The notes beneath the pieces are model-generated. The model was not told the DNA's origin. It saw only the letters and a list, made by a program, of their open reading frames with translations, and did no database searches. From positions 1 to 22,810 of the IMG/VR virus record IMGVR_UViG_3300023276_001691: a DNA stretch of 22,810 bases, one strand, 5' to 3'. Each line of letters opens with the position of its first letter. Position 1 is the first letter of the stretch. This DNA comes from a virus. Of the stretch, positions 4,252 to 22,810 are shown piece by piece. The translations under genes were made by a program, and so were the position numbers.

Positions 4252-5841
4252 ATGTCTTACACATTATCTAAAAAAGAGATAGTAGCAGAAATATTAAAAT
4301 GCGGCAAAGATCCCGTTTATTTTACGAATAATTATGCTAGAATTTCCCACCCCATCCATGGATTAATCCCCTTCAAGACCTATCCCTATCAGGCGGACTT
4401 GCTTCAGGATTTTAACGACTATCGTTTTAATGTTATATTAAAGGCAAGACAGCTTGGTATTTCAACTATCGCTGCTGGATATGTTGTTTGGCTGATGTTG
4501 TTTCACCGCGACAAAAATATTCTTGTCATGGCGACAAAATTCAAAACTGCTTCAAATTTGGTAAAAAAAGTCAAAGCAATAATGAAAAATCTCCCAGAAT
4601 GGATTGTTATTTCGGAGATATCAATAGATAATCGCTCATCTTTTGAGCTTTCTAATGGCTCTCAGATACAGGCAGCTTCTTCCTCGGGAGATGCGGGTCG
4701 CTCAGAGGCACTTTCTTTATTAGTTATTGATGAGGCTGCCCATGTTGAGAATCTAGATGAATTATGGGCAGGTCTATATCCCACGATTTCAACTGGGGGT
4801 AGGGTTATCGCGCTATCTACCCCAAACGGTGTTGGTAACTGGTTTCACAAGGTATACTCCGAGGCGGCAGAAGGTTCCAACGACTTTCACCCTATTAATT
4901 TGCCGTGGGATGTCCACCCAGAAAGGGATCAGGAGTGGTTTGATAAGGAAACCAGAAATATGTCAAGAAGGGAGATTGCACAAGAATTAGAATGCAATTT
5001 CAACACTTCCGGAGAGTCAGTGATACACCCTGATGATATCGCATGGCTAGAATCTTCTGTGTGCGATCCGCAATATAGAACCGGTTTTGACAGAAATATG
5101 TGGATTTGGGAAAAATACGAACCAGATAGTTCTTATTTGTTAGTAGCCGATGTCGCCAGAGGAGACGGAGCGGATTATTCTGTATTCCATATCTTAAAGC
5201 TGGAGACGATGGAGGTGGTAGCCGAATATCAAGGAAAGCCTAGCCTCGATATGTATTCGAATATCTTATCACAAGCGGGCAAAGAATACGGAAATTGTCT
5301 CCTTGTGGTGGAAAATGTCGGTATCGGCATATCTGTTCTGGAGAAGCTCATTGATATGGAGTATCCAAACTTATATTATTCAATAAAGAGTACTCATGAG
5401 TTTGTGGACAGCTATCAGGGTGAAACAAATAACTCTGCGGTCCCAGGATTTACGACATCTTCTAAGACGAGACCATTAATTGTTGCAAAATTGGAAGAAT
5501 TCATAAGAAACAAACTAATTAGAGTATATTCTGTTCGCCTTTCGAATGAAATGCGAACTTTTATTTGGCATAATGGCAAACCCCAAGCAATGAGGGGCTA
5601 CAACGACGATTTGACAATGGCACTAGCCATTGCATGCTGGGTTAAAGACACAGCACTGTCGGTAAACAAAAAGGAATCAGATTATAAAAAAGCTTGTCTA
5701 GGATCGATAATTAAAGTTGATACAAAAATAAATACAACAATTCCAGGAATGCAAGGATACAATAGGAAGCAGACTTTAGACGAAAAAATGTTTCAAGCAA
5801 AAGATGATTATAAAAAATATTCATGGTTAATAAAAGGATAA
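4252..5841 (+). CDS. 17: Terminase large subunit (gp17-like packaging ATPase/nuclease)
   Basis: The 529-residue product is a complete two-domain viral DNA packaging motor. The ATPase domain has an atypical Walker A (K64-A-R-Q-L-G-I-S-T72), Walker B LLVIDEAA with D160 and E161, and coupling motif STPNG (189-193). The P-loop lacks the usual GK(S/T) lysine. As in lambda-type terminases, a lysine at the start of the loop (K64) probably substitutes. The RNase H-like nuclease domain has its acidic residues at D300 (ADVARGDGADYS), E354 (VVENVG) and D452/D453 (YNDDLTMAL), matching T4 gp17 D401, E458 and D542 in context. It docks on the portal, cuts concatemeric DNA and pumps it into the prohead. The portal gene follows 3 bases downstream. 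Confidence 0.95.
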   Translation: MSYTLSKKEIVAEILKCGKDPVYFTNNYARISHPIHGLIPFKTYPYQADLLQDFNDYRFNVILKARQLGISTIAAGYVVWLMLFHRDKNILVMATKFKTASNLVKKVKAIMKNLPEWIVISEISIDNRSSFELSNGSQIQAASSSGDAGRSEALSLLVIDEAAHVENLDELWAGLYPTISTGGRVIALSTPNGVGNWFHKVYSEAAEGSNDFHPINLPWDVHPERDQEWFDKETRNMSRREIAQELECNFNTSGESVIHPDDIAWLESSVCDPQYRTGFDRNMWIWEKYEPDSSYLLVADVARGDGADYSVFHILKLETMEVVAEYQGKPSLDMYSNILSQAGKEYGNCLLVVENVGIGISVLEKLIDMEYPNLYYSIKSTHEFVDSYQGETNNSAVPGFTTSSKTRPLIVAKLEEFIRNKLIRVYSVRLSNEMRTFIWHNGKPQAMRGYNDDLTMALAIACWVKDTALSVNKKESDYKKACLGSIIKVDTKINTTIPGMQGYNRKQTLDEKMFQAKDDYKKYSWLIKG

Positions 5842-9514: not shown

Positions 9515-10132
9515 ATGAGCAAGGTTTTATTGAGAGAATATTATGCTTTGTGTGAAGGCGGTGTCTGCCAAGACCTCCTCACAGAGGCAGAGAAAATAGA
9601 TATACAAAAAAATGGTGCAATGTACCTTACCGGGCTGATGCAGTGTGCTGCAAAGCCCAATGGGAATATGAGAGTGTACCCAGAAGATATTTTAATCAGA
9701 GAAGTGAAAAATTATCAAAAACTCGTAAAAGAAAATCGTGCACTTGGGGAGCTGGATCATCCCGATGATTCGGTTATTAACTTAAAAAATGCTTCCCACA
9801 TTGTAACAAACATTTGGATGGAAGGACCGGAGGTCAAAGGCACAGTTAAAGTACTGGACACCCCTTCGGGAAAAATACTGCGATCACTGGTTGAAGGCGG
9901 GTGTCAACTCGGAATTTCTTCTAGGGGTCTTGGGTCCGTAAGAGAAATGCATGACGGCTGTGTCGCAGTTGAAGAGGATTTTCAGCTTATTTGTTTTGAT
10001 TTTGTATCAGAACCGTCAACACCAAACGCTTTTATGAACCTTCGAGAGGGCAAGCAATATAAAGAGCCAAACATTTTTACAAAAGCCGATAGAATTAACA
10101 GAGCTTTAAACAGCATCTTGGGAGATAAATAA
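9515..10132 (+). CDS. 21: Prohead maturation protease (gp21-like)
   Basis: The 205-residue protein is a serine protease of the T4 gp21 type. The catalytic histidine is in GELDHPD (H82) and the nucleophile in LGISSRGLG (S135 or S136). The segment CFDFVSEPSTPNAFM (about 164-178) is characteristic of the family. Length is close to T4 gp21 (about 212). It is made inside the prohead core, self-activates, cleaves scaffold and capsid proteins after (I/L)-x-E, and then degrades. Fitting substrates are present in this window, in the scaffold (15633-16640) and capsid (16663-18390) proteins. The ATG is 7 bases after GAGAGGA. Confidence 0.93.
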   Translation: MSKVLLREYYALCEGGVCQDLLTEAEKIDIQKNGAMYLTGLMQCAAKPNGNMRVYPEDILIREVKNYQKLVKENRALGELDHPDDSVINLKNASHIVTNIWMEGPEVKGTVKVLDTPSGKILRSLVEGGCQLGISSRGLGSVREMHDGCVAVEEDFQLICFDFVSEPSTPNAFMNLREGKQYKEPNIFTKADRINRALNSILGDK

Positions 10133-10133
10133 A

Positions 10134-10583
10134 ATGAACAACAAGTGGTCAAGCAACGACAAAAATCAATTGATTTTTGAGAATTTTAGAAAATTTATGA
10201 AAGAAGGTGAGTTTTCACCAGTTGTGGCATCATCTGTGAAAGACTTCATCCTCGGCGGAAAAATGGAAAAAAGAAAATATAGCAACATCCCGGTTTATGT
10301 TCTTGCGAGAGTAGTCCGAATCAACCGCAAAGATCTTGAGAAAATGACAAAAGAAGATGGTATCGAAGAGATAGTCAAATTAATGAATACCTTCGACGAA
10401 GATGGCAGTGTTAGTAGAGCCACTAAGGGCAAAAAATTGAGCGATATAATGAAAATAAGGGAATTTGTAGAATGGTATTTGGATAAGAAGAAAGAAGAGG
10501 GACAAAAATTAGTAAATTTCACGGACGATGAAATGTCGGACGATGAAATGTCGGACGAAGAACTATACAAGGATATTCTTTAA
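10134..10583 (+). CDS. Small charged protein after protease, probable prohead or internal protein
   Basis: The ATG at 10134 follows the protease stop by one base. The 149-residue product begins with LIFENFRKFMKEGEFS (about residues 13-28), which resembles the short aromatic/basic helices that target proteins into the core of T4-like proheads. This comparison is by eye. The middle is helical and basic. The C-terminus is strongly acidic and contains a perfect DNA duplication of 15 bases (10524-10538 and 10539-10553) giving DDEMS twice, then DEE. I do not recognise a family. Neighbours on both sides argue for a head assembly or internal-protein role. Confidence 0.55.
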   Translation: MNNKWSSNDKNQLIFENFRKFMKEGEFSPVVASSVKDFILGGKMEKRKYSNIPVYVLARVVRINRKDLEKMTKEDGIEEIVKLMNTFDEDGSVSRATKGKKLSDIMKIREFVEWYLDKKKEEGQKLVNFTDDEMSDDEMSDEELYKDIL

Positions 10584-11012
10584 ATGAAAAAACAAGAACT
10601 ACAAAAAATTTTAAAGCCCCTCATCAAAGAGTGTATCAAAGAGGTTGTCTTTGAAGAAGGTGTACTATCCGGACTCATCAGAGAGGTAGCCACGGGGTTA
10701 AATTCTCAACCGCTTGTTACGGAAACTCAAGAAGTATCGCCCAAAAACCAAGAATTTGCAAGAAGGAGGCAAGTTGAGTTGCAAGAGGAATCTAGATCCG
10801 CCATGGAAGCGAAGAAAAGGAAGCTAGAGGAGTCACTGGGGGGTGGATTCGGCGGCATATTTGATAGTGTTGAACCCCTCTCGAAAGGCGGCACAGTCAG
10901 CGAGTCTAAAACTCAGGGGCCATTGTCTGGATATGCCCCCACAGACGCGGGTGTAGATATTTCCGCGATAATGTCATTAGGTGGAGCAAGAATCTGGAAA
11001 AACATGAATTAG
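10584..11012 (+). CDS. Unassigned phage-conserved protein, probable head assembly or internal protein
   Basis: The ATG abuts the previous TAA directly. The 142-residue product starts with an amphipathic helix (about residues 1-38) that includes LKPLIKECIKEVVFEEGVL. I recall this pattern from hypothetical proteins in marine T4-like phages. A charged helical section follows (about 55-85), then a Gly/Phe-rich segment and a loose C-terminus. It contains L-x-E and I-x-E triplets (for example I-K-E in the leader, L-Q-E and L-E-E later), so it could be a substrate of the prohead protease, but such triplets are common. No enzyme motif is visible. It closes the first head gene block; a short non-coding gap follows. 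Confidence 0.55.
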   Translation: MKKQELQKILKPLIKECIKEVVFEEGVLSGLIREVATGLNSQPLVTETQEVSPKNQEFARRRQVELQEESRSAMEAKKRKLEESLGGGFGGIFDSVEPLSKGGTVSESKTQGPLSGYAPTDAGVDISAIMSLGGARIWKNMN

Positions 11013-11065
11013 CAATCCATTTTGTGCACACATAAAGATAAAAAAACAAAAAAAACACATTTGAG

Positions 11066-11078
11066 ATAGTATTTATAT
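11066..11078 (+). promoter_or_regulatory. Candidate late promoter element, copy 2
   Basis: ATAGTATTTATAT lies in the 85-base gap before the fibre gene. Its G (in place of the usual C) is 29 bases before the ATG at 11098. It is the most divergent of the five gap copies (G-T-A for C-T-A). The gap also carries a poly-A-rich stretch (about 11036-11055) and no obvious terminator. Confidence 0.35.
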
Positions 11079-11097
11079 GGAAGAGGATTCCTGAGTA

Positions 11098-13680
11098 ATG
11101 TCGAGATTTAGACCGAGCAGAAACTATGTCAATGGTAAGGTTGTGTTCGATGGCGGACCCGTCGATATAGCTGGAGACCTCATCGTCTCTGGCACGATTA
11201 CTGCCAACGAGTACAATGTCAATGTCATAAATACAAATGTGACACATATAGACGCCGATGGTAATACGAAATTCGGTGATACTCCGGACGACACCCATCA
11301 GTTTACAGGATCTGTGTTTATTAACGGTCCTTTGTCCGCTAGCAGCATTATAGGCGGCGGATCAACCACTCCTGGCGGAGCAGATACCAATATCCAATAT
11401 AATAATGCAGGCGCCTTCGGCGGTTCTGCCAATTTTACTTGGAATAATGCATCCAGCACAGTAACAATAAGTGGAGATTTGAGCGGATCAGGAAACATAT
11501 CCGGGTCAGCTTTTTATGGCGATGGTTCAAATTTAACGGGAATCACAACCACATCACCAACGGGAAAAATGCTGTATGTTGATATAGTCAACGGCAATGA
11601 CGGCACGGCGACAAGGGGCGATGCCAATAGTCCCTATTTGACTGTAGCGGCAGCACTTTCCGATGCCTTAGCACAGGATGCAGTAATAGTGAGGCCGGGC
11701 ACTTATACCGAATCTGGATTAACCCTATCTTCTAGTGTCACTCTAATTGGCGAAGGAGGCTGGAGAAATACTCAAATTGGTGATCACTCTGCAACTCAAA
11801 ACATTTTAGAAGTCGAAGGACTATCTCAAGTTGATGGGATAACCTTTTTGGTGCCAAGTTCTTCAGCTGGGTATAGCGGAGTATTTTACAGCGGCTCCGC
11901 TGATCCCACGTTCTCTATATATAATTGTAATATGTTCGGGAATGCCTCAACTGGCCAGGGGATAGGAATCAATAAAACCGGTATCGGAAAAATCATCGGA
12001 GCAGAAATTCGATGCGATCAGGGCGGATTATCGCATGTTCTGAAGGTGGATTCTGGAACAACAGCCCTTGAATCGATACATGTCCCGCCAAGTAGCGGAG
12101 ATATAGATTCGGTCGCTTTCGCCACTGGCTCAGGAAGATTCCAGCTAGTTGATTTAAACGTTGACAGCCCAAATGTTACCGATGCCCTCTATTGTGACGA
12201 TTCTTCTACAACTCTCATATTCGGAATAAATACATTTAATATAACAAACAGTGTGCATATAGCATCTAACGATGCCTCCGTTACTATCAACGGCGGACAG
12301 ATGGACGAGACGGGTTTCGCTGTGCTTGCTGATCCATCTCTGACCCTCAATAATGGAAAGGTCAGAATTACTGCGAATCACAACTCGAACTATAGCTTCA
12401 ACCCCGCCGCCGCAGGCGCAGATTTCGGATTATCGTTCTTTCAAGAAGGCGATCTAACAAGATTTCCTCAACAACGTGCCTTCGGTGTCGATTCTGCTTT
12501 TGGATTCGCAGAACGGGGAAGCAAACTATTCTCTGGGCGAGGACCATCATATTCAACCGGAATAAGGGTAATAACAACAGACAATACAGCGGGACCAGTG
12601 TCAGATGGTGGAGGCTTCGTAGACGAATCAACTTCTGCTAGATCTAGAACTGCAAGCACATTTACCTTTCAGGGCACATTGCCAAATCATACCATCTTGT
12701 GGACCACGGAAAGGCTAGATCCGGCAGGCTCTAACTTGAAACATTGGGGGATTCAAATGCAGCAGGCACTCGCCGGTCTGGGCGGCTCATATGTGATAGA
12801 AATATGGAATGGGGCATCCTGGACAGAGGTTAACTGTATGGCGACATCGGAAGCCGAAACTTATCGATATGCCGACAATTTTTTCTTAAGGGCAAATAGT
12901 ACAGAAATAATGAGATTTGGGATAGACGACAGTACGACATGGGCAACAAAGACTATCGTGGTGGGTGCTGATTCTATAACCGGATACTGGATTCGAGCAA
13001 GAATCGCCACGACTGTGACCACTTTGCCAACCTTTCAGAGATGGTGGGTTGCCCCGTCTTTCACTTTGATTAATACCGAGGGTCAAAGGACAGCAATGGG
13101 GCTTTCTCAGTGGAAGGAAACACTGGTGGGTTCCGGCAACATTTTTGGAGAATCTGGCGGTGTAGTTAATGCCAGCATCCCAGTCGGATCAGGGGGTCTT
13201 CCCACCGGCTGGAATCAGGTTCTATTAAATGCAGAACTAAATGGAAATGGTGATGCAATTTATTTTCAATTTCCGCTTCCAAACGGTGTCTGTACAGCAT
13301 ATCCAGTAAATATAAAGGCAGTATATTCCCTCAATCCAGTGGGCACTACCCCGCCAGACATGATTTGTTCTTTTTTGCCCGCTGAAGTTGCTGAAAATCT
13401 AATTGCAGATCCAGCAGGAGGAATTCCTCCTGTTCCAAGGTTGATAGCCAGCACAGATTCACTTACAGCGAATCCTGCACAGACATCTTCTGTGGCAGTT
13501 CCAAATAACATTGCTAACAAGTTAAGCATTATCGACTTTGGCGGCTTCGATATCTCTCCTTATTATGAGGATGATATCATGGTCATGCGCATTGAGATGG
13601 ATAACGGAAATGGCGGCGATGTCGTCATTTGGTCTCTCATTATTGAAGGTGTCATATTCTCAGACGGAAAAAATATTTAG
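11098..13680 (+). CDS. Large beta-helix fibre or appendage protein
   Basis: The 860-residue product is rich in Ser, Thr, Gly and Asn, as virion fibres are. Residues about 1-75 hold a head/tail attachment-like segment (GDLIVSGTITANEYNVNV...THQFTGS). A fibre-type motif SGSAFYGDGSNLTGI follows at about 135-149. From about 158, LYVDIVNGNDGTATRGD begins a pectin-lyase-like parallel beta-helix that runs to about 430 (VIVRPGTYTESGLTLSSSV is a typical early rung). The rest contains a domain with GYWIRARIATTVTTLPTF (about 627-644), a type seen in aquatic phage structural proteins, and a beta-rich C-terminus. It probably binds or degrades a host surface glycan, but no catalytic residues can be assigned. 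Its place inside the head genes also allows a head-attached fibre. Confidence 0.75.
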   Translation: MSRFRPSRNYVNGKVVFDGGPVDIAGDLIVSGTITANEYNVNVINTNVTHIDADGNTKFGDTPDDTHQFTGSVFINGPLSASSIIGGGSTTPGGADTNIQYNNAGAFGGSANFTWNNASSTVTISGDLSGSGNISGSAFYGDGSNLTGITTTSPTGKMLYVDIVNGNDGTATRGDANSPYLTVAAALSDALAQDAVIVRPGTYTESGLTLSSSVTLIGEGGWRNTQIGDHSATQNILEVEGLSQVDGITFLVPSSSAGYSGVFYSGSADPTFSIYNCNMFGNASTGQGIGINKTGIGKIIGAEIRCDQGGLSHVLKVDSGTTALESIHVPPSSGDIDSVAFATGSGRFQLVDLNVDSPNVTDALYCDDSSTTLIFGINTFNITNSVHIASNDASVTINGGQMDETGFAVLADPSLTLNNGKVRITANHNSNYSFNPAAAGADFGLSFFQEGDLTRFPQQRAFGVDSAFGFAERGSKLFSGRGPSYSTGIRVITTDNTAGPVSDGGGFVDESTSARSRTASTFTFQGTLPNHTILWTTERLDPAGSNLKHWGIQMQQALAGLGGSYVIEIWNGASWTEVNCMATSEAETYRYADNFFLRANSTEIMRFGIDDSTTWATKTIVVGADSITGYWIRARIATTVTTLPTFQRWWVAPSFTLINTEGQRTAMGLSQWKETLVGSGNIFGESGGVVNASIPVGSGGLPTGWNQVLLNAELNGNGDAIYFQFPLPNGVCTAYPVNIKAVYSLNPVGTTPPDMICSFLPAEVAENLIADPAGGIPPVPRLIASTDSLTANPAQTSSVAVPNNIANKLSIIDFGGFDISPYYEDDIMVMRIEMDNGNGGDVVIWSLIIEGVIFSDGKNI

Positions 13681-16662: not shown

Positions 16663-18390
16663 ATGTCAATTATTAATAAATTAACGGAAGGCATCGTTCG
16701 CCGAGACCTCGCCAAGGAAGGATCCGCTCTTTTATCCAAGTGGGAAAAGACCGGTCTATTGGAAGGACTAAATGAACGCACAAAACAAGGTATGGCTAGC
16801 CTTTTAGAAAATCAAGCTAAGGAAATTCTTCGTGAAGCTTCCACTATGGCAGGTTCCGGAGGCGGAGACGTCGAAGGTTTCGCATCTGTCGCATTCCCAA
16901 TCGTTCGCCGAGTATTCGGTGGACTGATCGCCAATGATCTTGTATCTGTCCAGCCAATGAGCCTCCCATCGGGACTCATTTTCTTCTTGGACTTCACTTA
17001 TGACGGCGGTACCACCCGTCGTCTTGATTATGTTGCGGATACTTCCGTATATGGCGGCGGAGTTGTTGGTTCTCAAATTACTGGCGGTATTTCACTTGCT
17101 GGTAACGAAGCAGAACAAAGCTACTATGCTTTGAACAACGGCTACTCAAGCCCAACCGGATCTGCAAACATCACTTATGATGGTATGGCTTCTGGAACGG
17201 TCGGTTCTGGTGTTCCTGGTGATTGGACTGCTACCGGTACAGGTGCAGCAGCATTGCAAGCCCTTGGTGACCGTCTGGTTCGTTTCGACCCAGACTTGGC
17301 ATCAGGTTCTTTCGCTGCAGTTGCTAGTGTTCCCCTATCGCAATTCACTGGTGGTGCAGACTCTCTTAACATCAAAGATTACGTTACCATTACTTTGGAA
17401 GATTCAGGCGGCATCGTCGACGGAAACCAAGTTCGTCGTCTTACCGTAGATGACCCAACCACTCCTGGCAACATCTTGCTTGTCGCAGTTGGTGCAACAT
17501 CTATCCTCGCAGAATCAGATTTGATCCAGAATAACACCGCTTCTTTCGTCATCGATGACAATTTTCAAGCAGCTGGTGGTGCAATCGGAGCAGTTACTGG
17601 TATTGATAATTGGGGACTGGAAAACGAAGCAGCAATCCCAGAAATCGACATTAAGGTTGATTCTGTCGCTGTTACTGCCAAAACCAAGAAACTCAAAGCT
17701 AAGTGGACACCAGAATTGGCTCAAGACTTGAACGCATACCACAACCTGGATGCCGAAGTCGAACTGACTTCAATTCTGTCCGAGCACATCGCACTTGAGA
17801 TTGACCAAGAAATCTTGGAAGACCTCGTAAAAGGTGCCACTGCCCAAACGATGTTCTGGTCTCGTCTCCCTGGCAAATTTGTCAATAGAGAAACTGGCAC
17901 ACCGCTTCCCACCTCCGGAACCTTCCCAGACTTCACTGGCAATGTTAGCGAATGGTACGAAACCCTCATTGAAACGATCAACGATGTTTCAGCACAGATT
18001 CACCGTAAGACTCTGAGAGGCGGAGCAAACTTCCTGGTATGTTCACCAGAGGTTGCAAACCTTCTTGAGTTCACCGCTGGATTCAGAGGTGCTGTATCTC
18101 ATGATGACGATCGTGGAAATGTTGGAGCTGTCAAAGTCGGTTCCTTGAGTAAGAAGTTTGACGTTTATGTCGACCCTTACTTCCCAAGAAACGTTGTTCT
18201 TTGCGGTCGTAAAGGATCCTCTTTCCTTGAAAGCGGATATGTGTATGCACCTTATGTGCCTCTCCAGATGACTCCTACCATTTTTGGTACAGAGGACTTC
18301 GTGCCGCGTAAAGGTGTCATGACCCGATATGCCAAGAAGATGGTTCGTCCGGATATGTACGGTCTCGTAATCGTTCAAGACTTAGTATAA
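16663..18390 (+). CDS. 23: Major capsid protein (gp23-like)
   Basis: The 575-residue product aligns by eye with T4 gp23. Diagnostic segments are IVRRVFGGLIANDLVSVQPM (80-99), LKAKWTPELAQDLNAYHNLD (about 344-363) and, near the C-terminus, GYVYAPYVPL and GVMTRYAKKMV. The N-terminal ~58 residues form a helical propeptide ending in L-R-E|A (E58/A59; codon 59 at 16837), matching the site and length of the T4 gp23 propeptide (cut after residue 65). The predicted mature protein is about 517 residues. The region between about 110 and 310 is Gly/Thr/Ser-rich and differs from T4, where gp23 carries its insertion domain. Arginine codons here are mostly CGT/CGC, unlike the AGA-rich neighbours, as expected for the most abundant virion protein. 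AAAGGAG (16645-16651) precedes the ATG by 11 bases. Confidence 0.95.
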   Translation: MSIINKLTEGIVRRDLAKEGSALLSKWEKTGLLEGLNERTKQGMASLLENQAKEILREASTMAGSGGGDVEGFASVAFPIVRRVFGGLIANDLVSVQPMSLPSGLIFFLDFTYDGGTTRRLDYVADTSVYGGGVVGSQITGGISLAGNEAEQSYYALNNGYSSPTGSANITYDGMASGTVGSGVPGDWTATGTGAAALQALGDRLVRFDPDLASGSFAAVASVPLSQFTGGADSLNIKDYVTITLEDSGGIVDGNQVRRLTVDDPTTPGNILLVAVGATSILAESDLIQNNTASFVIDDNFQAAGGAIGAVTGIDNWGLENEAAIPEIDIKVDSVAVTAKTKKLKAKWTPELAQDLNAYHNLDAEVELTSILSEHIALEIDQEILEDLVKGATAQTMFWSRLPGKFVNRETGTPLPTSGTFPDFTGNVSEWYETLIETINDVSAQIHRKTLRGGANFLVCSPEVANLLEFTAGFRGAVSHDDDRGNVGAVKVGSLSKKFDVYVDPYFPRNVVLCGRKGSSFLESGYVYAPYVPLQMTPTIFGTEDFVPRKGVMTRYAKKMVRPDMYGLVIVQDLV

Positions 18391-18479: not shown

Positions 18480-19748
18480 ATGGCTTTACCAACTTTAACA
18501 CCCGCTAGTCAGATGAGCAAGGCTATTTTGCCACCAACTGGAAATGTGGCGGCGGTATCCGCACAGTTACCACTCACGGTCTATTCGGACTCGAATGCCT
18601 TCCTTTCCGGTGCGGCTGATCAGGTCGCCTACACCTTTAAGAAAATAGGCGGCGATGTCCTAGATATCGAACTGAAAACGGGGAATGTATATGCGAACTA
18701 TCAAGAGGCCGTACTAGAATACAGCTACCTTGTTAATCTGCACCAATCAAAAAACATTTTATCAGATGTTCTGGGGCAAACCACGGGTACATTTGACCAA
18801 GACGGTCAGAGTGTATCTGGACCATCAGGTGTGAATTTAAAATTCCCTCGTGTAATGTTTGAATATGAGAAAAGAGTTGCTGATTACTATTCCTTCGAGG
18901 CAAATGTGGGAGGAACGATCCCCATATACTCAGCTTCTTTTCAATTGCAAGAAGGAGAACAAGATTACGATTTACAGTCCATCATTTCCGGCTCTTCCGC
19001 ATCAGGAACGGAACCAAATGGAGACCCAGCACCATTTGCTGGTATAGTGGGCGACAAGAGAGTCATTGTTAAAAAGGTTTATTATAAGACTCCGCAGGCT
19101 ATGTGGCGATTTTTCGGTTATTTCGGTGGTTTAAACGTCGTCGGCAACTTAAACTATTATGGGCAATATACGGATGATTCAAGTTTTGAGCTGGTTCCAG
19201 CTTGGCAAAACAAGCTTCAAGCAATGGCATTTGAAGATCATCTTTACACCCGGTTATCTCACTATTCATACGAATTAAAAGACAATAAGTTAAGATTATA
19301 TCCAGCCCCACAATTGTTGAGTACCTACCGGTATATGTGGGTAGATTTTTCTGTCATACCTAATAGCTGGGAAGAATCTGGAGATTCGGATTCCGGAATT
19401 GGCGGAATCAACAATATGAATACACTCCCTTTCGATAATATCCCATATGAGAATATTAATGCGATAGGTAAACAGTGGATTAGGAGATTTGCCTTGGCAC
19501 TATCAAAAGAAACACTGGCACAAATAAGGGGAAAATTTCAAACAATTCCAATTCCTGGAGAATCTGTCACCCTAAACGCATCGGAACTTTTATCTCAGTC
19601 GAAAGACGAGCAAGAAAAGTTGAGAGAAGAGTTAAAAACGATCCTAGACGAATTAACATATGCAGAGTTGGCAAAAAGAGATTCAGAAAAAACAGAAGCA
19701 GTGAATACGGTGCAAAAAAGAATACCTAATATTATCTTCCAGGGGTAA
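18480..19748 (+). CDS. 13: Neck protein (gp13-like head completion)
   Basis: The 422-residue protein follows AGGAGG at 9 bases. It has a long beta-rich body. The C-terminal region starting INAIGKQWIRRFALALSKETLAQIRGKF (about 324-351) and continuing through IPGESVTLNASELL to a charged helix and a terminal aliphatic-Gly matches the pattern of the T4 gp13 family C-terminus (W-x-R-R/K-x-x-x-A-L followed by a GG/GES-x-T-L-N motif). gp13 joins the portal after packaging and, with gp14, seals the head and accepts the tail. It is longer than T4 gp13 (about 309), with an extended N-terminal and middle part. Its position directly after the capsid gene and before two further neck/tail-end genes agrees. 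The assignment is by motif pattern. Confidence 0.7.
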   Translation: MALPTLTPASQMSKAILPPTGNVAAVSAQLPLTVYSDSNAFLSGAADQVAYTFKKIGGDVLDIELKTGNVYANYQEAVLEYSYLVNLHQSKNILSDVLGQTTGTFDQDGQSVSGPSGVNLKFPRVMFEYEKRVADYYSFEANVGGTIPIYSASFQLQEGEQDYDLQSIISGSSASGTEPNGDPAPFAGIVGDKRVIVKKVYYKTPQAMWRFFGYFGGLNVVGNLNYYGQYTDDSSFELVPAWQNKLQAMAFEDHLYTRLSHYSYELKDNKLRLYPAPQLLSTYRYMWVDFSVIPNSWEESGDSDSGIGGINNMNTLPFDNIPYENINAIGKQWIRRFALALSKETLAQIRGKFQTIPIPGESVTLNASELLSQSKDEQEKLREELKTILDELTYAELAKRDSEKTEAVNTVQKRIPNIIFQG

Positions 19749-19750
19749 AA

Positions 19751-20620
19751 ATGAGCAGCAAAAAAGAACAAAATGATGATTTTCGACCATATTATCCCAA
19801 AAAGGATGACCCAACAAAGCCACCCTTAAAAGAAATTTCTTTTATGCCCTCGACAATTGAGACCATTGACTTCGCCTTATACGATTGGCTTAACGAAGAA
19901 TTAAACATATTTTGCACAACAAATGATGGGTGGAAAAAGGTTCCTCTTATATGGTCGATGCCAGAAAGGGCTTTCCAGACAAAAGATAATAAAGATTTGA
20001 GAAATGCTGATGATATCTTCACACTGCCGGTCATCAGTATCGATAGAAGCTCTTTGATTAAAGACCCGAACATGAAGGGGGTTGCTTGGTCACACCTTCC
20101 CAGGCAAAATGATGCCAAAGGGGGAACTCTCACGGTAGCAAGAAGAATACAGCAAGAGAAAACATCTAATTTTGCTGATGCCGATGCCAAGAGAAGATTT
20201 GACCAGCGAACTTATCCACTTAAGAACGAAAAAATTGTATATGAAACTGTAACAATGCCTCTTCCTACATATGTCGTCGCAAACTATAAATTAACCATTA
20301 CGACAGAATATCAACAACAAATGAATGAAATTTTTACACCCTTTATGTCATACACCGGACAAATTAATAACTTTTTCATAAACCGTGATGGCCATAGATT
20401 TGAGGGATTCGTAGACGGACAGTTTGGATTAGAAAATAACATTTCACAACTTGGAGAAGAAGAGCGAAAATATAAAACAGTCATTAATCTTAAGATTTTA
20501 GGATACTTGATGGGTTCCGATAAGAATGATAATCAGCCAAAAGTAACAATTCGAGAATCTGCAGCAGAACTTAGATTTACAAGAGAGCGCGTTGTTTTTG
20601 GTGATAAGAAGGAATATTAG
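19751..20620 (+). CDS. 15: Tail sheath stabiliser/tail terminator (gp15-like)
   Basis: The 289-residue protein starts 2 bases after the previous stop. Its pattern follows T4 gp15 (about 272 residues). An early W-K-K-V-P-L-I-W-S-M-P-E-R strand (about 61-73) is followed by TLPVISIDRSSL and then by PLPTYVVANYKLTITTEYQQQ (about 173-193), a helix ending in FTPFM, a Gly/Asp-rich turn and a final strand. gp15 caps the contractile tail and binds the neck. The N-terminus is Lys/Asp/Pro-rich and likely flexible. Another tail-completion protein remains possible. Confidence 0.65.
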   Translation: MSSKKEQNDDFRPYYPKKDDPTKPPLKEISFMPSTIETIDFALYDWLNEELNIFCTTNDGWKKVPLIWSMPERAFQTKDNKDLRNADDIFTLPVISIDRSSLIKDPNMKGVAWSHLPRQNDAKGGTLTVARRIQQEKTSNFADADAKRRFDQRTYPLKNEKIVYETVTMPLPTYVVANYKLTITTEYQQQMNEIFTPFMSYTGQINNFFINRDGHRFEGFVDGQFGLENNISQLGEEERKYKTVINLKILGYLMGSDKNDNQPKVTIRESAAELRFTRERVVFGDKKEY

Positions 20621-20622
20621 TC

Positions 20623-21465
20623 ATGGCTGATGAAGAAAATAAGTGGACAAAGCCATCCAATCCTCCCCCTCCTCTTTTTCTAGGCGAGCGGGAAAGAAAT
20701 CTTGTTAAGCAGGTTAACGATGAGCTTATAGAAAGGGTCATCGGGCAGGCGATTACTTATTTACCGATTTCTATGGAGAGAACAAATTTTCACCCTCTCT
20801 ACGGAGAGGCAATAGAGAAGTCGTTTTTGCCGCCAATCCGAGTATATGCTTTGGTGGAATTCGAAAATAAAACAACCATAACGACTGATTACGGCATCGA
20901 TAAGGACTACTCAATCATTGTTAGATTTCATAACCGTAGGTTGCACGAAGATCAGAACTTGTTCATAAGGGAAGGGGATTATGTCCAATATGGCACCTCT
21001 TTCTTTGAAATCGTCACACTTACGGAAGATAGAGATTTGTTCGGTCAAGTCGACCACAGATTTCAATTAATCGCCAAGTGCATAAAGACAAGAAGAGGGC
21101 TGATAAACTTGGATGTGTTGCCCACAACTACAGTTTCAGCCCTGACCGATAGCTACGAAGCAGAGGTTGCCCCTACCGCCTCTGAAGCCGAAGCCGAAGC
21201 AAGTCCCGTAACAAGTGTTGTTAGAATTGTATATTGTGAGGATGCCACCATGGATATTTCTTCAGGGACTTCTCTAAATTCTCTTCTTAGTGCACCCACC
21301 TCTCTATCTTTAGAGACGGCAGCTGTTTATCTGGGCGGATTAAGGCAGAAATTGACAGATAGTCCAGTAACTGGCGAATTTTATATTGTTTCGGGGGAGC
21401 TTTACAGCAGTTTCGACATTTTAACTGGAGAAAGATTAACTTTGGAGGTTCTAACTTTAGTATGA
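20623..21465 (+). CDS. 14: Neck protein (gp14-like)
   Basis: The 280-residue protein starts 2 bases after the previous stop. The segment ITYLPISMERTNFHPLYGEAIEKSFLPPIRVYALVEFE (about 43-81), followed by a run ending REGDYVQYGTSFFEI, has the order of elements in T4 gp14: a Y-L-P start, a docking loop, beta strands, then E-G-D-x-V-x-Y-G. gp14 forms the ring between gp13 and the tail. An additional C-terminal region (about 180-280, starting Ala/Glu/Pro-rich) extends beyond that core. The last bases overlap the next gene (ATGA, 21462-21465), tying it to the DUF444 gene. Gene order here would be 13-15-14 rather than T4's 13-14-15, so the labels gp14 and gp15 carry some uncertainty. Confidence 0.62.
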   Translation: MADEENKWTKPSNPPPPLFLGERERNLVKQVNDELIERVIGQAITYLPISMERTNFHPLYGEAIEKSFLPPIRVYALVEFENKTTITTDYGIDKDYSIIVRFHNRRLHEDQNLFIREGDYVQYGTSFFEIVTLTEDRDLFGQVDHRFQLIAKCIKTRRGLINLDVLPTTTVSALTDSYEAEVAPTASEAEAEASPVTSVVRIVYCEDATMDISSGTSLNSLLSAPTSLSLETAAVYLGGLRQKLTDSPVTGEFYIVSGELYSSFDILTGERLTLEVLTLV

Positions 21466-22673
21466 GTATTTTTAGAGAACACAAATCAATAGCCGACCGT
21501 TCTGCGGCAGATAGAAAAAGACATAAGGAAAAAATAGATAGGGCACTCCGCGACGGAATAAAAGGAGTTATTGCCGAAGAATCTATCATAGGTCAAAATG
21601 GCAAAAAGAAAGTAAAAATTCCAGTTAAGGGCATCAAGGAATATCAGTTTGTCTTTGGGGATAATAAAAATAATAAAAAAACAGGTTCCGCTGGAGATAA
21701 GAAGATTAAGAGAGGGCAGGTCTTACGCAGAGGAAAGAAGGACCAGAAGTCAAATCAGGCAGGAAAGGAAGGGTCGAACGAACAAGGCGAAGAATATTAT
21801 GAAGTGGAAGTGACACTGGAAGAGTTGGCTGAATACCTTTTCATGGATCTGGAACTGCCCGACCTTGAAAAAAAGAAATTTAGATATATAAAAACACAAA
21901 GGCTAAAAAGAAGCGGTTTTAGAAAAAAGGGCATGCGCTCTAGGCTTTCCAAAAAAGAAACTATAAAAAGAAAGATAAGAAGAAAAAAGCGCGCCACCGC
22001 TGCAGGCACCTACGATCCCGAAGGCGAAGAGAGATTCCCCTTCCACGAAGACGATTTGAAGTACAAGCACATGAAATTAAAGCCCGAAGAGAACAACTCC
22101 GCAGTTATATTCTTCTTGATGGATGTGTCCGGATCAATGACAAAGGATAAGAAGTACATTGCCAGAAGCTTTTATTTCTTGTTGTATCAATTCCTCCGAT
22201 ACAAATACGATAATATAGAAGTTGTATTTATTTCGCACTCGACAGAGGCAAAAGAAGTTAATGAAGACGATTTCTTTAAAAAAGCAACAAGTGGTGGAAC
22301 CCTGATGTCTACCGCACTGGAACTAGAGAAAGAAATAATAAATAAGAGATATCACCCTTCCAGCTGGAATATATACACTTTTTATTCTGGCGATGGAGAA
22401 AACTGGTCTTATGACGATGAAAAGACACTAAAATTGTTTTCGGAACTAAAAGAAGTAAATCAGATGATGTGTTATGCCGAAATTGACCCGCACTCTATAG
22501 AAGAGTCAGAATTGTCATTTTTGTCGAGATCTTTTAATTATAATGTTAGTGAGGCGAGCAAGATGTGGATGAAGATAAATAAAGTATTGGGAGATGGCTT
22601 TAAAAAAGTAAAGCTTACAAAGCCAGAACACATCTGGCCATCATTCCGTGAATTATTTGGAGGAAAGCCATGA
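21462..22673 (+). CDS. yeaH: DUF444 (YeaH/YhbH) vWA-like protein carried by phage
   Basis: The ATG overlaps the TGA of the neck gene (ATGA), so this gene is translationally coupled to a virion gene. The 403-residue product matches the DUF444 family: a charged, basic N-terminal half with a lysine/arginine-rich stretch (about 140-178), then a vWA-like domain. That domain contains a MIDAS motif DVSGSM (D221, S223, S225), FISHSTEAKEV (about 257-266), TSGGTLMSTAL (about 277-286) and SGDGENW (about 309-315). In bacteria this family is encoded with PrkA kinase and SpoVR (YcgB) and is tied to stress, starvation and sporulation; the biochemical role is unclear. MIDAS residues are intact, suggesting an active metal-dependent contact. 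The SpoVR gene follows with another ATGA overlap. Confidence 0.9.
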   Translation: MSIFREHKSIADRSAADRKRHKEKIDRALRDGIKGVIAEESIIGQNGKKKVKIPVKGIKEYQFVFGDNKNNKKTGSAGDKKIKRGQVLRRGKKDQKSNQAGKEGSNEQGEEYYEVEVTLEELAEYLFMDLELPDLEKKKFRYIKTQRLKRSGFRKKGMRSRLSKKETIKRKIRRKKRATAAGTYDPEGEERFPFHEDDLKYKHMKLKPEENNSAVIFFLMDVSGSMTKDKKYIARSFYFLLYQFLRYKYDNIEVVFISHSTEAKEVNEDDFFKKATSGGTLMSTALELEKEIINKRYHPSSWNIYTFYSGDGENWSYDDEKTLKLFSELKEVNQMMCYAEIDPHSIEESELSFLSRSFNYNVSEASKMWMKINKVLGDGFKKVKLTKPEHIWPSFRELFGGKP

Positions 22674-22810
22674 AAGATTGGTCTGTAAAGGAGCTGGAAA
22701 GGTGGGATGATGAAATTTGTAAAATTGCAAAGGAAAAATATAACCTAGATTGGTTTCCTATCGAATATGAAATTTTAAATTATCACGAGATGATCGGGGC
22801 TATGGCTTAT
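22670..22810 (+). CDS. spoVR: SpoVR/YcgB-family protein (3' partial)
   Basis: The ATG at 22670 overlaps the preceding TGA (ATGA). The window ends after 47 codons. The visible segment (KELERWDDEICKIAKEKYNL, DWFPIEYEILNYHEMIGAMAY) matches the N-terminus of SpoVR/YcgB proteins, where a conserved I-A-x-E-x-G/N-L-D-x-(Y/F)-P is followed by x-(E/Q)-x-E-I/V and a short Met/Ala/Tyr-rich run. In bacteria SpoVR is co-encoded with DUF444 and PrkA. Only about a tenth of the usual length is seen here, so intactness and any downstream PrkA gene cannot be judged. Confidence 0.85.
   Translation, partial: MKDWSVKELERWDDEICKIAKEKYNLDWFPIEYEILNYHEMIGAMAY

Follow-up and report, generated by a model that had tools for sequence, protein, structure and literature searches.

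The whole stretch analyzed here, which we call the window, is a 22.8-kb virus record of a T4-like phage. It encodes gp23, an S77 protease, and TerL, which place it among the T4-like (gp23) myoviruses. At its right end, it carries a DUF444 gene and the beginning of a SpoVR gene, directly behind virion genes. The features are as follows.

4252-5841, TerL, a T4-type terminase
9515-10132, S77 prohead protease
16663..18390, plus strand, gp23-like major capsid protein of the upstream virion operon (PF07068, E=6e-77; phrog_138, E=2e-72)
18480..19748, plus strand, head-tail adaptor or neck-like protein of 422 aa (phrog_211, head-tail adaptor Ad2, E=4.5e-11)
19751..20620, plus strand, virion-operon gene of 289 aa, kept in relatives and assigned to the neck by position (synteny)
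20623..21465, plus strand, 280-aa gene assigned to the neck by position (synteny)
21121-21465, C-terminal extension of the 280-aa neck gene (residues 167-280)
21444..21449, plus strand, GGAGGT, probable ribosome-binding site of DUF444, within the last codons of the neck gene
21462..21465, plus strand, ATGA start/stop overlap of neck gene and DUF444 (ATG at 21462-21464; TGA of the 280-aa gene at 21463-21465)
21462..22673, plus strand, DUF444 (YeaH/YhbH family), VWA domain protein of 403 aa (PF04285, E=2e-105; VWA fold in the model)
22122..22139, plus strand, MIDAS motif DVSGSM, with T280 at 22299-22301 and D311 at 22392-22394
22670..22673, plus strand, ATGA start/stop overlap of DUF444 and SpoVR, common to many relatives
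22670..22810, plus strand, N-terminal 46-47 codons of SpoVR (PF04293, E=9e-8), running past the window end

The 280-aa gene is called a neck protein by position; neither it nor its homologue in contig L011 matched any Pfam or PHROG family, while the phrog_211 match lies two genes upstream. The 289-aa gene had no significant match in Pfam or PHROG either. Tail sheath and tail tube genes are present in relatives, where they were named by sequence resemblance and position. A scan of the window for the T4 late promoter TATAAATA gave four matches, compared with 1.17 expected. The sole plus-strand TATAAATA match (position 1664) lies within an ORF far upstream, and thus the timing of transcription is not readable from the sequence; a sigma-70 scan of the window gave about the shuffled expectation.

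We confirmed that the DUF444 gene is real and has an intact MIDAS, as the first-pass annotation had stated, and that both ATGA overlaps are present in the window and conserved in relatives. The MIDAS residues (D221/S223/S225, T280, and D311) were invariant among 36 aligned homologues, and the structural model of DUF444 (pLDDT 72) is a VWA domain whose many VWA-domain matches include the Rea1/Mdn1 MIDAS and a NorQD chain, while a sequence search of the PDB returned no homologue. A search for the same junction with the neck gene in other T4-like genomes had been proposed as a check; the exact 4-nt overlap of neck gene and DUF444 was found in 19 of 29 related loci, a set that includes near-duplicates, and most of the others abut within 3 nt. 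A similar purine-rich sequence precedes DUF444 in many of the relatives that share this overlap. The neck, DUF444, and SpoVR genes are probably translationally coupled through their overlaps; contrary to the earlier wording, they are not fused. In L056 and L057 (DUF444 at 10001-11204), the DUF444 reading frame is broken near LRYKYDN, and the break is identical in both, which may reflect a natural pseudogene or a sequencing error.

That the contig ends inside SpoVR is the sole point in favor of an assembly chimera or bacterial contamination. This explanation has a negligible probability, because 4,488 bp of a separate contig, L002, match the window at 99.98% identity across both the neck-DUF444 and the DUF444-SpoVR junctions, the same junction occurs in some 25 further contigs, and the phage gene order is unlike that of all bacteria read. 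The chimeric join that the first-pass annotation had allowed for is therefore refuted by independent contigs.

Extension to the right, which had been proposed as a check, revealed a complete three-gene set. L002 carries SpoVR on to 164 aa, which are 91% identical to the full 433-aa SpoVR of L011, and full-length SpoVR proteins in L011, L030, and L050 matched PF04293 with E values of about 1e-114 or better. Scanning viral contigs with the window DUF444, we obtained 57 loci with 48-100% identity; on contigs of sufficient length, SpoVR (about 433 aa) came next after DUF444, and a third gene behind it encoded a protein of ~645-655 aa. This third protein is a two-domain PrkA (in L011, PF08298 [AAA_PrkA], E=1e-144, and PF06798 [C-terminal], E=6e-79). 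PrkA is known here from relatives, the window ending within SpoVR; nonetheless, the earlier suggestion of a PrkA next door, and with it a three-gene system, was borne out. From a PrkA scan, we kept the best 80 of 226 relatives, including 76 newly fetched loci, and found the order DUF444>SpoVR>PrkA in 75 of them, the remaining contig starting at SpoVR. The triad genes were thus present in about 100 distinct viral contigs (at least ~109 with both scans together, the PrkA list being the best 80 of 226).

The gene order separates the phage loci from the bacterial ones. All complete T4-like phage loci of the first set (51/51), together with two MAG-binned contigs, had DUF444>SpoVR>PrkA, whereas all 54 complete bacterial loci, from Bacillota, Pseudomonadota, Bdellovibrionota, Myxococcota, and others, had PrkA>DUF444>SpoVR, an order that was not found in the T4-like loci. 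Pfam matches were far over the cut-off for all three proteins in three lineages; the phage components belong to the PrkA, DUF444, and SpoVR families, and their operon is a permuted variant. Phage PrkA is ~56-67% identical to PrkA of most bacterial loci read, and keeps the Walker A motif GPVGAGKS and the residue aligned with K426 of YeaG. YeaG R232, which has been reported to be functionally important (PMC4664914), is conserved neither in phage PrkA nor in two closer bacterial relatives. The best AAA domain of PrkA was AAA_PrkA; AAA_5 scored 20.3 bits, below the 22-bit cut-off, and PrkA is accordingly not MoxR-type by this measure. A sequence search of the PDB retrieved 9xip as a PrkA homologue.

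SpoVR gave no PDB homologue by sequence search, and its model (pLDDT 87) had no Foldseek match at E<=0.001. By VIA-align, the top row was a putative lipoprotein (3o0y, Z 11.7 over 182 residues), and the rows were mostly gluzincin metallopeptidases (ERAP2, Z 9.3; Pz peptidase, 9.2; ACE, 8.1), these being middling values that are common with helical models. In the model, H107-x3-H111 lies in one helix and N246-E247-G248 in a later helix, and all of these residues were invariant among 41 sequences. The motif is HxxGH, with C, V, or A in the 41 sequences where HExxH has its catalytic Glu; hence, SpoVR lacks the HExxH part of the gluzincin catalytic motif (HExxH plus a downstream Glu ligand). We regard the predicted resemblance to gluzincin metallopeptidases as a lead, and it is possible that SpoVR is a metal-binding pseudo-peptidase or another hydrolase. 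SpoVR has been reported to bind RNA in vivo (PMC12456014). The SpoVR of L044 (3255-5816) is 853 aa long, with an insertion of ~400 aa in the conserved NEGW-A region that looks like an intein.

In the PrkA tree, which had 109 rows, the sequences from T4-like phages formed one clade (SH-aLRT 100) outside all 51 bacterial-type rows, within which the lineage of the window was a clade of its own (SH-aLRT 100). This implies that the module is old in phages and is not host contamination; placement inside a host, the other outcome that had been held to speak against a phage origin, was not observed. Clostridia appeared as the sister group of the phage clade, a placement that is not firmly established; the bacterial sample was drawn with phage-like DUF444 peptides. 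Two MAGs, TMED69 and SP2999, were rejected as bacterial sources of the triad, because the triad adjoins genes matching phage contigs, which implicates binning or infection. Indeed, L059 (NHDW01000006.1, Methylococcaceae MAG) has gp23 on the same contig, many flanking genes of L059 and of L060 (PBIO01000025.1, Halobacteriovorax MAG) match phage contigs, and both are likely to be phage contigs binned with bacteria.

The dN/dS ratio was about 0.02 for all three genes, with dS near saturation (dN/dS components: DUF444, window versus L011, 0.053/2.72; SpoVR, 0.036/1.64; PrkA, 0.029/1.82). At the sequence level, all three proteins are under strong purifying selection, which rules out that DUF444 or SpoVR is a degraded host gene. 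The same data bear on the idea that phage subunits act as dominant-negative decoys that poison the PrkA system of the host, one of the roles suggested earlier. Their homology to host components and the occurrence of DUF444 alone in Bacillus phage CM1 would be in line with it. One altered subunit would suffice for such a purpose, though, whereas the phages keep all three genes together in about 100 contigs, with MIDAS and Walker A intact and under the selection described above, and we consider blocking of host PrkA very unlikely.

In the lineage of the window, the triad lies between the neck and tail sheath genes. Contig G008, for example, has on the plus strand throughout the 280-aa neck gene, DUF444, SpoVR, PrkA, two more genes, tail sheath, and tail tube, and G005 has the same arrangement except for larger fibre-like genes ahead of the sheath. 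Thus, the triad sits within the virion operon, ahead of the sheath and tube genes, and not at the operon's end as first described. The accompanying claim that the genes are made with late proteins is supported for this lineage, as far as gene order indicates. The neck-sheath site also holds the triad in L225, whose head gene is more distant (63% identity). In the close relatives L126-L133, a neck gene of 165 aa is followed directly by the sheath gene, with no triad between them. The C-terminal extension of the neck gene is absent from this 165-aa homologue and is largely limited to triad-bearing contigs. In the head/neck tree, L126-L132 and L124/L125 are nested within triad-bearing rows, so that three changes are needed, most simply one gain and two losses; the triad was probably lost twice in this group (group A), where lost means lost from the neck-sheath site, the triad-less L124-L133 being partial contigs. 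In L124 (5046-6407) and L125 (7485-8846), the neck gene is duplicated, with copies of 167 aa and 281 aa; other structural-like genes come after the long copy in L125, and no triad is seen there.

This accessory distribution in group A, together with the several genome positions of the triad, could suggest that the genes are cargo picked up opportunistically from hosts and that their place in the virion operon is functionally meaningless. We consider this improbable, because the triad forms one old clade with an invariant gene order under strong purifying selection, and even the more distant L225 has it at the same site.

Two other T4-like lineages place the triad elsewhere. In G011 (group B), at least 80 kb separate it from the main virion genes, and in G025 (group C), it is on the opposite strand, far from virion genes; both contigs also encode gp23 and the S77 protease. 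This implies that the late position belongs to one branch and not to the module as such, and a general late or virion role, as had been proposed, does not agree with these two lineages or with the two sublineages whose virion operons do without the triad. In group B, PrkA is directly followed by a divergent gene that resembles part of GroEL (phrog_5725, E about 1e-13; L030, 14470-15795, L035, 14449-15690, and about 20 further loci), while at least one contig of this group (G011) has a full GroEL gene at another location. Group C has a full GroEL gene a few kb from the triad, and long contigs of all three groups encode full GroEL. The proximity to chaperonin genes suggests a role in protein homeostasis, and the distance from virion genes in groups B and C likewise favors a cytoplasmic role of this kind.

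A virion-directed function would mean that the triad serves late in infection as a chaperone or processing machine while head, neck, and tail are assembled or mature, or that it is packaged in the particle. Such a function would fit the place of the triad between neck and tail sheath, the start/stop overlap with the neck gene, the neck-gene extension largely limited to triad-bearing contigs, the metallopeptidase-like fold of the SpoVR model, and the unrelated Thermus phage Lalka27a, which has DUF444>SpoVR>PrkA between a minor head protein gene and TerL. It is at odds with the groups B and C, with the triad-less virion operons, and with the high identity of phage to bacterial PrkA, which would be expected of biochemistry held in common with a non-virion system. 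On balance, we consider it unlikely, albeit worth keeping in mind.

We somewhat favor the explanation that the triad is a complete copy of the bacterial machine, late in this lineage, that acts in the infected cell and is not a structural part of the virion. The bacterial system acts in spore cortex formation in Bacillus. YeaG/YeaH has been called a metabolic brake in nitrogen-starved E. coli (PMC10954441, PMC4664914), and the prkA-vWA-spoVR operon of Rhizobium etli is (p)ppGpp induced (PMC3188799). By analogy, the phage triad would be made late, judging from gene order, as a soluble AAA+ machine, in which PrkA would be the ATP-driven component (ATPase), DUF444 a VWA/MIDAS adaptor presenting clients in the manner of NorQ-NorD or Rea1-Ytm1, and SpoVR a partner of predicted gluzincin fold that would bind metal and may also bind RNA. 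It might bring about or sustain a state resembling stress or quiescence, with the protein homeostasis of that state, during particle production. Complex formation of the three proteins and their effect on the host are deduced here. Three points count against this explanation: the position in the virion operon fits an assembly role equally well; YeaG R232 is absent from phage PrkA; and neither kinase nor protease activity could be detected for B. anthracis PrkA in vitro (PMC13001217), which leaves the bacterial biochemistry unsettled. A bolder version, which we put forward tentatively and think doubtful, is that PrkA, DUF444, and SpoVR are one split AAA+ machine (ATPase, MIDAS adaptor, and gluzincin-fold metal site of SpoVR), and that T4-like phages captured and permuted it, one lineage fixing it in the virion operon to remodel host or virion proteins late. 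If this is true, a split machine with the metal site in SpoVR could account for the disagreement among reports on whether PrkA is a protease.

PrkA-DUF444-SpoVR is a widely conserved bacterial stress operon with little-understood biochemistry, and the phage version offers a route to its function: the triad, being compact, permuted, and strongly conserved, lends itself naturally to reconstitution, and its setting in the virion operon hints at the time of its action. A virome study ranked spoVR first in abundance among "sporulation" auxiliary genes (PMC8940887); in T4-like phages, it is part of a three-gene stress module, which need not concern spores.

Among known systems, AAA+/VWA-MIDAS machines (NorQ-NorD, the Rea1/Mdn1 MIDAS, RavA-ViaA, and CbbQ-CbbO) might work in a similar way, each pairing an ATPase with a MIDAS protein. 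PrkA, however, is AAA_PrkA and not MoxR-type by Pfam, and we do not claim membership of the MoxR-VWA class. The bacterial operon (yeaG-yeaH plus ycgB; prkA-yhbH-spoVR; prkA-vWA-spoVR in R. etli) shares with the phage triad all three families, both PrkA domains, the MIDAS, and the invariant SpoVR residues, but it is ordered PrkA>DUF444>SpoVR, whereas the phage genes are ordered DUF444>SpoVR>PrkA and lie here in a virion operon. The YeaG-YeaH genes at the record end of Enterobacter phage LAU1 (L202, MN688132.1, 1-3308) look like prophage-flanking host genes.

Other phages are also known to carry these genes. The huge phages LR745206, LR756502, LR756504, and LR756511 encode PrkA, DUF444, and SpoVR, as here, but with PrkA first, the bacterial order, unlike the T4-like phages, and three of their four PrkAs group with proteobacterial-type PrkA in the tree. 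The jumbo phage RsoM2USA has SpoVR (ORF28) and PrkA (ORF30) (PMC8504454), and no virion-operon link is shown for it or for the huge phages. Thermus phages phiYS40, phiLo, MN1, and Lalka27a have the complete triad in the same permuted order as the T4-like phages, with one extra gene ahead of PrkA in phiYS40, and in Lalka27a the triad also lies among head/packaging genes. These are different phages, however, and their PrkA is only about 33% identical and forms a separate deep branch. Their triad genes are annotated one at a time, and carriage was already on record in the phiYS40 annotation. We found no paper that treats them as a system, and in the Thermus Lalka paper the terms searched turned up no mention of the triad. 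In the open-access literature searched, we likewise found neither the complete permuted module, nor its spread among T4-like phages, nor its place in a virion operon described. Thus, phage carriage was already known from phiYS40 and RsoM2USA, whereas the permuted, widespread, and virion-embedded form is, as far as we found, new.
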